A DNA stretch of 64,000 bases from Mesoflavibacter profundi (GTDB lineage: Bacteria; Bacteroidota; Bacteroidia; Flavobacteriales; Flavobacteriaceae): positions 2,771,501 through 2,835,500 of the forward strand of contig NZ_CP061703.1 in NCBI RefSeq assembly GCF_014764305.1, written 5' to 3'. The notes under the pieces were generated by a model. It searched no databases. It was not told the origin of the DNA and saw only the letters and a list, made by a program, of their open reading frames with translations. A program made the position numbers and the translations under genes. Positions 57,119 through 59,039 of this stretch are shown one piece after another; position 1 is the first letter of the stretch, and each line of letters opens with the position of its first letter.

Positions 57119-57976
57119 TTAGAGCACCATATTTTCAATAGGACAAACTAATATACCTTCTGCTCCATTGGCTTTTAATTCGTCTATAATTTCCCAGAAA
57201 TCGTTTTTGTTGATTACGGAATGTAATGAACTCCAGCCTTCTTCGGCTAGTGGTAAAACGGTTGGACTTTTCATTCCTGGTAAAATATTTATGATGTCGT
57301 CAACCTTATTATTTGGCGCGTTAAGTAAGACGTAACGTGAGTTTCTTGCTTTTAAAACTGATTGTAATCTAAACTGCAACTTGTTTAAAATCGCTTGATT
57401 TTCAGAAGAAATTTGAGGTGAAACTGCTAAAACAGCTTCCGATTTTAAAATGACTTCAACTTCTTTAAGATTGTTTTTAAAAAGTGTGCTTCCGCTAGAT
57501 ACAATATCAACAATTGCGTCTGCTAATCCAATGTTTGGCGCAATTTCAACAGAACCGTTAATGATGTGCAAATTCGCGTTAACATTGTTGTCTTTTAAAA
57601 ATTGGTTGACTGTGTTTGGATACGACGTCGCGATTCGTTTTCCTTCTAAATCTTTAATAGAATTGTAGCTTTTTCCTTTTGGAATCGCTACAGACACTTT
57701 ACAACTTGAAAAACCTAATTTCTCTGCAATAGTGATGTCTTGTCCTTTTTCTACCAAGACATTTTCGCCAATAATAGCGACGTCTACAACGCCATCTTTT
57801 AAGTATTGTGGAATGTCTCCGTTACGTAAATAAAAGACTTCTAAAGGAAAGTTTTTAGCAGATGCTTTAAGCTGGTCTTTACCATTATCGATAGAAATAC
57901 CAACATCTTTAAGGATTTTCATTGAATCCTCGTTTAATCGTCCAGATTTTTGAATTGCAATTTTTAGTTTACTCAT
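57119..57976 (-). CDS. hisG: ATP phosphoribosyltransferase, long form
   Basis: 285 residues: catalytic periplasmic-binding-like domains (about 1-205) with KIAIQKSGRL, DVAIIGENVL, RIATSYPNTV and the PRPP-loop DIVSSGSTL, then a C-terminal ACT-like regulatory domain (about 210-285) ending EGILVCPIENMVL, as in histidine-inhibited long HisG. First committed step. First structural gene; its start is preceded by the attenuator terminator and leader peptide. Confidence 0.97.
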   Translation of the reverse strand: MSKLKIAIQKSGRLNEDSMKILKDVGISIDNGKDQLKASAKNFPLEVFYLRNGDIPQYLKDGVVDVAIIGENVLVEKGQDITIAEKLGFSSCKVSVAIPKGKSYNSIKDLEGKRIATSYPNTVNQFLKDNNVNANLHIINGSVEIAPNIGLADAIVDIVSSGSTLFKNNLKEVEVILKSEAVLAVSPQISSENQAILNKLQFRLQSVLKARNSRYVLLNAPNNKVDDIINILPGMKSPTVLPLAEEGWSSLHSVINKNDFWEIIDELKANGAEGILVCPIENMVL

Positions 57977-58026
57977 TTTTCTTTTTAGTTAAAAGTGTTT
58001 GAGTAAATCTTGTTGAAGTTTTGATA

Positions 58027-58060
58027 ATAAAAAAACCGCTTGATTTACTCAAACGGTTTT
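58027..58060 (-). terminator. his operon attenuator terminator
   Basis: On the minus strand AAAACCGTTTGA (58060-58049), loop GTAAA, TCAAGCGGTTTT (58043-58032), then a U-rich run: 12 pairs with one G-U. It sits between the leader peptide and hisG with no gene stop before it, so it can only act on transcripts that have passed the leader. Its 5' arm CGTTTGAGT (58055-58047) can instead pair with ACTCAAGCG (58105-58097) at the end of the leader coding region. Confidence 0.9.
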
Positions 58061-58105
58061 AAAAATATCTTGGTTTTATTCAATACATTTTCAGCTCGCT
58101 TGAGT
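58047..58105 (-). promoter_or_regulatory. his antiterminator pairing
   Basis: ACTCAAGCG (58105-58097, leader codons 15-17 region) is complementary over 9 pairs, one G-U, to CGTTTGAGT (58055-58047) in the terminator 5' arm and loop. The two structures exclude each other. A ribosome stalled on the His codons would leave ACTCAAGCG free; one that reaches the stop would cover it. Confidence 0.8.
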
Positions 58106-58147
58106 GCAAGTATGAAAATGATGATGATGTAATTGAATAAAAGTCAT
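58091..58147 (-). CDS. his operon leader peptide
   Basis: An 18-residue frame, MTFIQLHHHHFHTCTQAS, ending in TGA at 58093-58091. Five of 18 residues are histidine, four in a row (codons 7-10) plus codon 12. It lies 13 bases or so after the expected transcription start and before a mutually exclusive antiterminator/terminator pair ahead of hisG. This is the arrangement of classical amino-acid attenuation: low charged His-tRNA stalls the ribosome on the His run and favours readthrough. The peptide itself is probably not functional. Confidence 0.9.
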   Translation of the reverse strand: MTFIQLHHHHFHTCTQAS

Positions 58148-58165
58148 GTCTTGTTTTGTTCTGTA

Positions 58166-58198
58166 CAAAGATTGTAAATTAATAATTAAAATTCCAAA
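58166..58198 (-). promoter_or_regulatory. his operon promoter (Bacteroidota type)
   Basis: On the minus strand a -33 TTTG (58198-58195) is followed after 21 bases by AATCTTTG (58173-58166), 7 of 8 matches to TAnnTTTG. Transcription would begin near 58159, about 12 bases before the leader ATG. Confidence 0.65.
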
Positions 58199-58226
58199 TT
58201 TTGAAATGTTAAAATTTATTTAATCA

Positions 58227-59039
58227 TTATTGATTACCTAAAATAATAGGCATGCCGCTATCTCCAGAACCAATTATAACTACCTTACTATTAGGAGATT
58301 CTGCTAATTTGTTTGTTGCTTCTATACCTTTATCTTGTAAAATCTTATCTGTTAAAGAAGCACTTAATATTTTGTTGGCATCTGCTTTACCTTGCGCTTC
58401 AATACGTTGTTTTTCGGCTTCTTTTTGAGCTGTAACTAATCTAAATTCATATTCTAAAGACTCTTGTTCTTGTTTTAATTTACGCTCTATCGCTTGTTTA
58501 ATTGTTGTTGGAAGTTGAACATCTTCAACTAAAACTCGCTTTACATTAACATATTGCTGATCTAACAACTTAGTGACTTCGTCTAATATTTCTTGCTCAA
58601 TTACATCTCTTTTACTAGAATATAACTGCTCTGGCGTGTATCTTCCAACAACACTTCTTGCTGCTGCATTTACAGCTGGAGCTAATAATTCTTGAACATA
58701 ATTTTCTCCTTTGGTCTTAATTAACAAGCCTAATTTACTGTATTCAGGCTCGTACCAAACTGTTCCGTTAACGTTTACCTCTAATCCATTAACAGATAGC
58801 ACATTCATTTTATCTGAAATAGATTGCTGTCTTACTTTTTTAATTATCATATCGTTCCATGGAGCAACAATATGAAATCCTTCGCCATAAGTTTGAGATG
58901 TATCAATACCATCTCCAAATCTTTTAAAAATAACACCACCTTCTCCAGGTCCGATGGTTACAGCAGATTTTGCTATAAGAATTATAAGTAATACTAAACC
59001 TATAATTATTGGTAATCCTATTTTTGGTAATCTTTCCAT
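58227..59039 (-). CDS. SPFH/prohibitin-family membrane protein
   Basis: 270 residues. One N-terminal transmembrane helix (IGLPIIIGLVLLIILIA, about 6-25), then an SPFH/PHB domain (about 28-200: VGPGEGGVIFKRFG-type start, YGEGFHIVAPW, VVGRYTPEQLYSSKRDVIEQ) and a coiled coil (KLKQEQESLEYEFRLVTAQKEAEKQRIEAQG, in parts). Such proteins form ring oligomers and organise membrane proteases or microdomains. Twelve bases downstream of the VWA gene, so co-transcribed. Confidence 0.88.
   Translation of the reverse strand: MERLPKIGLPIIIGLVLLIILIAKSAVTIGPGEGGVIFKRFGDGIDTSQTYGEGFHIVAPWNDMIIKKVRQQSISDKMNVLSVNGLEVNVNGTVWYEPEYSKLGLLIKTKGENYVQELLAPAVNAAARSVVGRYTPEQLYSSKRDVIEQEILDEVTKLLDQQYVNVKRVLVEDVQLPTTIKQAIERKLKQEQESLEYEFRLVTAQKEAEKQRIEAQGKADANKILSASLTDKILQDKGIEATNKLAESPNSKVVIIGSGDSGMPIILGNQ

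Follow-up and report, generated by a model that had tools for sequence, protein, structure and literature searches.

A predicted ribosome-mediated attenuator upstream of hisG in Mesoflavibacter profundi carries a conserved strand beyond its terminator

In this study, we describe a putative histidine attenuator upstream of hisG in Mesoflavibacter profundi, which appears to be ribosome-mediated and of the classical kind, plus one extra strand. This strand, segment 5, lies 3′ of the terminator U-tract and can pair with the terminator 5′ arm and loop. From the comparison of related sequences we consider the attenuator itself to be close to certain; the helix between segments 3 and 5 (3:5) is very probably functional, and the whole explanation, including a translational lock in the lineage of the window, seems to us moderately probable. 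The conserved segment 5 is a new variant on an otherwise largely ordinary attenuator, a structured element 5′ of hisG having itself been published already (PMC9723704). Segment 5 falls outside the interval covered by the original prediction (58027-58198) and was overlooked there. The promoter, leader, terminator and 9-bp antiterminator proposed in that prediction held up, but its statements that a 1:2 hairpin is absent and that two hairpins suffice did not.

The window is the whole stretch of 64,000 nucleotides that was analysed. It belongs to a genome of one 3.09-Mb contig, and the same genus code occurs in one other among the 299 sampled genomes. The closest named HisG among the best 80 of 555 candidates is that of Mesoflavibacter zeaxanthinifaciens (99% identity). 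The features of the locus are as follows.

58227-59039, minus strand: upstream neighbour gene of 270 residues, without an NCBIfam hit at 1e-10
58166-58198, minus strand: promoter-like element read from the sequence, with -33 TTTG (58198-58195), N21 and -7 AATCTTTG (58173-58166)
58091-58147, minus strand: His leader ORF read from the sequence, MTFIQLHHHHFHTCTQAS and stop, 18 codons with five His
58132-58142, minus strand: segment 1, UUUUAUUCAAU, outer strand of the 1:2 hairpin directly 5′ of the His codons (minimum-free-energy fold; 1:2 swap test)
58074-58084, minus strand: 3′ strand of the 1:2 hairpin, AUUGAAUAAAA (minimum-free-energy fold; swap test)
58097-58105, minus strand: segment 2, the antiterminator strand ACUCAAGCG, formed by the last codons of the leader and complementary to 58055-58047
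58060-58049, loop and 58043-58032, minus strand: terminator, a 12-bp hairpin with 5′ arm AAAACCGTTTGA, loop GTAAA and 3′ arm TCAAGCGGTTTT, then more T
58042-58060, minus strand: segment 3, comprising the 5′ arm AAAACCGUUUGA (58060-58049), the loop GUAAA (58048-58044) and the first two bases of the 3′ arm
58042-58054, minus strand: the part of segment 3 that pairs with segment 5, GUUUGAGUAAAUC
58029-58043, minus strand: segment 4, the terminator 3′ arm UCAAGCGGUUUU (58043-58032) and the remaining U-tract
57997-58009, minus strand: segment 5, GAUUUACUCAAAC, 3′ of the U-tract, a perfect 13-nt complement of 58054-58042
57968-57975, minus strand: segment 6, UGAGUAAA, at the hisG start (AUG 57976-57974), an 8-nt complement of positions 58007-58000 of segment 5; lineage-restricted
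57119-57976, minus strand: hisG (TIGR00070), first gene of the operon, which extends down to 50382

Eight his genes, all named by NCBIfam models, follow 3′ of the leader on the minus strand in the order hisG-hisD-hisC-hisB-hisH-hisA-hisF-hisIE (hisGDCBHAF-IE). The product of the upstream neighbour gene presumably is a membrane protein like prohibitin/band-7. The TTTG/N21/AATCTTTG motif, which we take to be of the Bacteroidota promoter type, is present where the original prediction placed it, and a similar motif (TTTG-N15..26-NAnnTTTG) was found within 75 nt 5′ of the leader start at 128 of 250 loci compared with 7 of 250 shuffled ones. As predicted from the sequence, the element sits between this putative promoter and the first gene of its cognate operon.

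A total of 340 hisG upstream regions were collected, of which 130 were from the family, 80 from named organisms, 50 from the order, 30 from the genus coded g127, which we take to be Flavobacterium, and 30 + 20 from the phylum sample, the 20 being from the class of the window. The sampling favours near relatives (130 of 251 HisG-bearing genomes, the best 80 of 555, 50 of 78, 30 of 43 and 50 of 252, respectively). Locus L309 was left out, since its hisG start could not be placed, giving 339 loci. Loci without a leader, with a terminator below score 10, with a non-ATG start, with a leader that extends into the terminator or with less than 18 nt after the U-tract were set aside, leaving 274. Some genomes occur in two samples, and rows with identical segments were merged, which reduced these to 252 loci with leader, terminator and ATG start.

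A short ORF with tandem His codons, as in attenuators of the his/trp type, is predicted to be translated as MTFIQLHHHHFHTCTQAS from 58147 to 58091, in agreement with the original prediction. A His-rich leader ORF was detected 5′ of hisG in 315 of the 339 loci; the same search gave 13 hits in 1017 shuffled regions and a single one in 339 reverse complements. The ORF was present in 28 of the 30 phylum-sample and 16 of the 19 class-sample loci. Fifteen of the 24 pattern-negative loci belong to 0.6-Mb genomes of family f16. The leader was present though missed by the search pattern in two more (L060 and L113), and at least four of the other seven (L300, L304, L314 and L336) were seen by eye to have a His-codon stretch, which fell outside the search pattern or the scanned stretch. 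In near relatives the peptide reads approximately M-x-F-I-Q-x-H-H-H-(H)-F-H-x-C-x-Q-A, and its final residues are encoded on the antiterminator strand CTCAAGCG. Conservation of the His run, terminator and antiterminator in this comparison, which had been proposed as a check, gives good support to the prediction of His-specific ribosome-mediated attenuation.

Two side observations concern the leader. A second in-frame ATG lies 5′ of some leaders (L102, L074 and L112; e.g. MENTFYFYRVMKNRNTHHHFYTGSQAR). The fifteen f16 loci that have hisG and no His leader by pattern (L216-L218, L221, L222, L224, L226, L227, L229, L232-L234, L236, L238 and L239) carry a terminator-like hairpin AAAGCTTAC..GTAAGCTTT 5′ of hisG; judging from their small size, these genomes are probably those of endosymbionts.

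An intrinsic terminator stands before the first gene, at the position predicted (AAAACCGTTTGA/GTAAA/TCAAGCGGTTTT and a T run), and in an alignment of 108 loci 98.5% of the cells of its helix are paired, with a covariation score of 0.144. The antiterminator strand ACTCAAGCG (58105-58097) can form 9 bp with CGTTTGAGT (58055-58047), as had been proposed, and this 2:3 pairing reached p≤0.05 against dinucleotide shuffles in 206 of the 252 loci. Both structures use 58055-58047 of segment 3, and the antiterminator would exclude the terminator. Segment 2 is formed by the last codons of the leader, so the strand does lie within the leader coding sequence. The idea that a ribosome at the stop codon occludes this strand is sound in its geometry; it is nothing special to this system, as ordinary attenuation does likewise.

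Scan scoring also returned 28 loci with a His leader and no strong intrinsic terminator, mostly in class- or phylum-level relatives (L273-L275, L279-L281, L283-L288, L292, L294-L296, L298, L299, L301, L311, L315, L318 and L320). The other five are nearer relatives (L021, L158, L324, L329 and L330), and a terminator missed by the scan is visible in L329 and L330. The class- and phylum-level relatives without a strong terminator may use another kind of attenuation.

The leader region folds more stably than dinucleotide shuffles (z = -5.2 for 189 nt and -6.1 for 126 nt; 0/200 equal in each). Its minimum-free-energy fold is the long 1:2 hairpin, in which 58142-58132 pairs with 58084-58074 and inner helices take in part of segment 2, so that the antiterminator strand is enclosed. 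The 1:2 pairing was supported at p≤0.02 against dinucleotide shuffles in 140 of the 252 loci and not in the remaining 112. In a swap test with 164 leader groups, own partners paired better by 3.05 kcal/mol (permutations -0.01 ± 0.21, 0/2000 equal). A separate 1:2 hairpin had been described as not evident, yet it is the minimum-free-energy fold and co-varies between species. Since it encloses the antiterminator strand, the claim that only two alternative hairpins are needed falls as well. The layout read from these sequences is the classical three-helix one and not a minimal two-hairpin system, and the 1:2 hairpin has a putative role in pausing.

Segment 5 (GATTTACTCAAAC, 58009-57997) exactly complements GTTTGAGTAAATC (58054-58042), which takes in part of the terminator 5′ arm, the loop and the start of the 3′ arm. 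In the window the two segments form an inverted repeat with a 32-nt spacer, and segment 5 ends 20 nt before hisG. Taking p≤0.02 against 200 shuffles together with at most -8 kcal/mol as support, the 3:5 pairing was supported in 181 of the 252 distinct loci; this is the only unselected figure for the helix, and since the loci are related by descent, the per-locus p values behind it are not independent. Loop variants such as GTAAA, GACAA, GTACA and GCAA are each matched by their own segment 5 complement. The distance from the U-tract to segment 5 ranges from 6 to 41 nt, and that from the end of segment 5 to the ATG has a median of 16 nt (quartiles 15-23, range 10-49).

Alignment A1 (MAFFT) and the model R1 were built on 108 of the 181 3:5-positive loci, having distinct segments and at most 62 nt from U-tract to ATG. 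In A1, 91.5% of the 3:5 cells are paired, a percentage which, like that for 5:6, is inflated because the loci were selected for 3:5. Eight of the 13 pairs changed on both sides, a number equalled in 9 of 500 shuffles. In these selected loci, both-side-changed cells numbered 121, compared with 38.6 ± 4.5 when shuffled and at most 31 when slid, and the covariation score was 0.333, where shuffling gave 0.169 ± 0.007 and sliding at most 0.069. This is above the 0.144 of the terminator; in Flavobacteriales, the post-terminator strand thus outscores the terminator itself in covariation. In a swap test with 48 segment-3 variants from the 181 loci, own partners gave -5.32 kcal/mol against 0.00 ± 0.34. 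On a HisG tree of 104 loci there were 18 double compensating 3:5 changes compared with 0-1 when slid, where the 3:5 windows had been picked by best pairing and some double changes may share one branch. There were a further 64 one-sided pair-keeping, 66 breaking and 26 restoring changes. The tree test left out rows with fewer than 9 of 13 pairs, with loops other than 5 nt or with an incomplete HisG.

The inverted repeat of the window, with its 32-nt spacer, is also what a DNA operator bound by a repressor would look like. We rejected this reading, which we consider extremely improbable, because both sides vary between species (27 further pair types) and the spacing between U-tract and segment 5 varies as well, and one protein would not be expected to track such variable sequence and spacing. 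The preferred reading of segments 3 and 5 is an RNA helix.

The 3:5 pairing was found in order families f1, f2, f3, f5, f7 and f15; no locus of the phylum sample (30) or the class sample (19) showed it, with just 6 and 6 of these testable. Of 148 genomes from the order, 51 gave an R1 hit at E≤0.01, and in every one of the 43 genomes with a hit at E≤3.2e-5 the hit adjoins a HisG match. On the genome of the window R1 returned one high-scoring match, the one before hisG. Two weaker matches at the ends of genes come after it (37.8 and 31.6 bits), and the others reach 27.3 bits or less. As a contrast, 10 trpE loci were examined, 8 of which have a terminator by scan, including the one of the same genome as the window. 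No segment-5-like strand was found in these eight (lowest p 0.075), and we rejected the idea that attenuators in these genomes generally carry such a strand.

Other leaders were seen in passing outside the window. In the same genome, locus L344 (G000:C1 near 368977) has a Trp leader MNTILNHTWWWNFKNSNFVK and a terminator AAAAGGCTTGTC..GACAAGCCTTTT before trpE, and WWW leaders were seen in 8 of the 10 trpE loci, which are not identical to the eight with terminators. Upstream of ilvD (L358, L355 and L357) there are Ile/Val/Leu-rich short ORFs with terminator-like hairpins, for instance MNKQIVNIISNISIVIIKSRW 330 nt before the start in the own genome and MRVNNVILSIIILLCQL at 132 nt in G300; these are possible branched-chain leaders.

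Segment 5 has a second potential partner, since TTTACTCA within it complements TGAGTAAA of the hisG start over 8 bp in the window (5:6). A segment-5 stretch pairing with hisG nucleotides 1-10 at p≤0.05 was found in 130 of the 181 loci with 3:5 and in 7 of the 71 without, and the 5:6 site overlapped the 3:5 site in 163 of the 181 (77.6 expected). The swap test with 36 start variants gave -1.73 kcal/mol for own partners against 0.00 ± 0.27. In the alignment of loci selected for 3:5, both-side-changed 5:6 cells numbered 39 against 18.1 ± 3.4 shuffled and covariation was 0.210, where shuffling gave 0.149 ± 0.009 and sliding at most 0.098; the pair count and the pair-type count were less clear, being equalled by 18 and 25 of 500 shuffles. 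Loop (GTACA), segment 5 (TGTACTCA) and hisG start (ATGAGTAC) changed jointly in most loci of g127. The start ATGAGTATT of L237 is matched with TATACTCAT, and ATGAACACC of L331 with GGGTTGTTCA.

The cost of opening hisG from -8 to +9 had a median of 6.2 kcal/mol with 3:4 forced and 1.5 with 3:5 forced. It was higher by more than 1 with 3:4 in 162 of the 181 loci and lower by more than 1 in 3, a gap which is partly trivial because forcing 3:5 uses up segment 5. The 3:4-forced state was the more stable one in 167 of the 181. Start occlusion above shuffles was found in 69 of 148 loci with an ATGAGT start, rising to 89 of 148 with hisG +1 to +36 as target; the corresponding counts for ATGAA starts were 4 and 1 of 16, and 4 of 70 loci without 3:5 had start occlusion. 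The per-locus p values for pairing with the start are not independent, as ATGAGTAAA was inherited in common by many of the loci.

The 14 ATGAC-start loci that keep 3:5 had no start occlusion above shuffles (0/14). Two of the 14 (L092 and L098) had pairing anywhere in hisG +1 to +36; in both, segment 3 and hisG +18 share the 9-mer AGCAATTCA, and segment 5 complements that site and not the start codon. At cells where segment 3 and hisG are discordant, segment 5 pairs with segment 3 only in 111, with hisG only in 20, with both in 24 and with neither in 10. These cells mostly follow segment 3, so the chief constraint comes from 3:5, with 5:6 in second place; on the HisG tree there were 3 double changes for 5:6 and 36 breaking ones. 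Blocking of the hisG start by segment 5 was therefore rejected as a universal rule, given the ATGAC-start loci and the discordant positions.

These exceptions bear on a simpler explanation, in which the attenuator is an ordinary his attenuator and 3:5 serves as an insulating hairpin of the mature mRNA, replacing the terminator stem and keeping the A-rich region before hisG open, with neither a sensing role nor a start lock. The ATGAC-start relatives, which keep 3:5 without 5:6, fit such a role, as does the rather constant position of the segment 5 end before the ATG (median 16 nt), near the edge of an initiating ribosome. However, insulation predicts neither the enrichment of 5:6 together with 3:5 (130/181 versus 7/71) nor the tracking of variant hisG starts, and we consider it unlikely, though the most serious of the alternatives. 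For the window and many ATGAGT-start relatives, the data suggest that 5:6 may add a further lock, on translation, whose state follows from the same choice made by the ribosome; the evidence for it is weaker than for 3:5. We put forward this start-codon lock in the lineage of the window tentatively, as a possibility falling somewhat short of an even chance.

Attenuator-derived small RNAs can act in trans in other bacteria. Here, segment 3 of the terminated leader RNA would pair with segment 5 of the readthrough his mRNA near the hisG start and repress it. The terminator loop and arm do complement 13 nt that end 20 nt before hisG, and both co-vary, but cis pairing explains the same covariation and is favoured as the strands share one molecule, which makes action in trans improbable.

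The comparison supports the leader and the 1:2, 2:3, 3:4 and 3:5 helices; the sequence of steps, the reaction to histidine supply and the lock on translation are our inference. When charged His-tRNA is ample, the ribosome would reach the leader stop and cover segment 2, or depart so that 1:2 forms; with segment 2 covered or held in 1:2, segment 3 would pair with segment 4 and transcription would stop. When charged His-tRNA is scarce, a ribosome stalled on the His codons would mask segment 1, so that 2:3 forms, 3:4 is delayed and the polymerase passes. Segment 5 leaves the polymerase too late to influence whether transcription ends at the U-tract, so it should act on a transcript already past that point. 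Once transcribed, it would take segment 3 from 2:3, its 13 bp being longer than 2:3. In the window and ATGAGT-start relatives, 3:5 would then keep segment 5 away from the hisG start codon, and hisG would be translated. In a transcript that leaks past a formed terminator, segment 3 would remain with segment 4, and the free segment 5 would pair with the hisG start and block it.

The attenuator may thus carry a double lock, in which the terminator 5′ arm and loop mimic the hisG start and segment 5 reports whether the terminator has formed, closing or sparing the start codon. We regard this as conceivable, with the balance slightly against it. If it is true, one ribosome decision on the His codons would be carried from transcription into translation, and the lineages using the lock would have a three-way co-varying set made up of segments 3 and 5 and the start of hisG. 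The natural start-context variants with and without 5:6 make the lock directly testable.

Stepwise folding of the window was performed by minimum free energy without kinetics, masking the RNA covered by the ribosome and withholding the 14 nt still inside the polymerase. For a polymerase standing where the U-tract ends (58027), 2:3 was the best fold if a ribosome had stalled at His codon one, two or four. If the ribosome sat at the stop codon or there was none, 2:3 never appeared and 3:4 formed next. In later steps with the stalled ribosome the minimum was 3:4 at 58019-57987, 3:5 at 57979-57963 and 3:4 with 5:6 from 57955, and without a stalled ribosome 3:5 was at no step the minimum. Taken as an equilibrium, the modelled fold would end closed in every case. 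The final minimum is 3:4 with 5:6 even after a stall, so the ON state requires kinetic trapping or rapid ribosome loading. This would amount to a kinetic memory: in starvation, 2:3 would keep segment 3 until segment 5 captures it and ribosomes load on the open hisG start, and in plenty the terminator would form first and the few leaked transcripts would be closed by 5:6.

Leader-peptide attenuation is textbook knowledge for proteobacteria, with his and trp of E. coli as the classical attenuators, and Rfam includes a proteobacterial His leader family. No Rfam family reached its gathering score in the window, and 12 sub-threshold hits up to E 10 in 57900-58300 included no leader-peptide family; among them was the 'trpB' cis-regulatory motif (E 2.5, 19.7 bits against a cut-off of 59). 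Like the classical amino-acid attenuators, as outlined in part of a published account (PMC9413887), the system has a leader with tandem regulatory codons, 1:2, 2:3 and 3:4 helices and a terminator before the cognate operon. Unlike in these, segment 2 lies here inside the leader coding sequence, and a conserved strand past the U-tract pairs with segment 3.

Bacteroidota are thought to initiate translation without relying on Shine-Dalgarno pairing, and a comparative attenuator study of 2004 reportedly mentions Bacteroidetes. In the open-access literature, as far as the accessible portions go, leader-peptide attenuation in Bacteroidota receives brief mentions only. A 2010 survey states, in the part available, that its authors were aware of no leader-peptide system having been shown beyond Proteobacteria and Actinobacteria before their own Firmicutes case (PMC2965389). 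A transcriptome map of B. thetaiotaomicron describes, in the sections available, leader-peptide-like short ORFs in long 5′ UTRs (PMC7366714). In F. psychrophilum, the accessible part of a transcriptome study gives a structured element 5′ of hisG, common to other genera of the family and without an Rfam match, and clues for leader-peptide attenuation before amino-acid operons (PMC9723704). With this element in print, a structured element before hisG is in itself nothing new; it is probably the same as the one here, and the accessible part has no account of the His leader, the helices or segment 5 (PMC9723704). No description of a post-terminator strand like segment 5 was found in the portions of the open-access literature at hand.

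In the B. subtilis trp leader with TRAP, transcription attenuation is combined with a translational block in readthrough transcripts. There the sensor is a protein; here the proposed sensor is the ribosome on the leader peptide. Among Gram-positive his regulators, some attenuators have a structure hiding the ribosome-binding site in place of a terminator, according to the account outlined in part above (PMC9413887). The mechanism that may come closest to the proposed double lock is that of tlrB (yxjB) in B. subtilis, where, in the accessible part of the report, a ribosome stalled on the leader keeps transcription from terminating and also keeps the start of the next gene from being closed (PMC6851288). 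The likeness would be that one leader-peptide ribosome sets both termination and start access and that leaky transcripts face a translational block. For the latter, a downstream start blocked in readthrough, there is partial support, at 69 of 148 or, with the wider target, 89 of 148 ATGAGT-start loci and at 0 of 14 ATGAC-start loci. As described in the same part of the report, tlrB senses tylosin, an antibiotic, and hides a Shine-Dalgarno sequence, and its antiterminator is not identified (PMC6851288); here there are His codons, an antiterminator is present, and the proposed target is a start codon mimicked by segment 3. If segment 5 controls the start codon, the his attenuator would be a compact case of a single ribosome decision acting at both transcription and translation.
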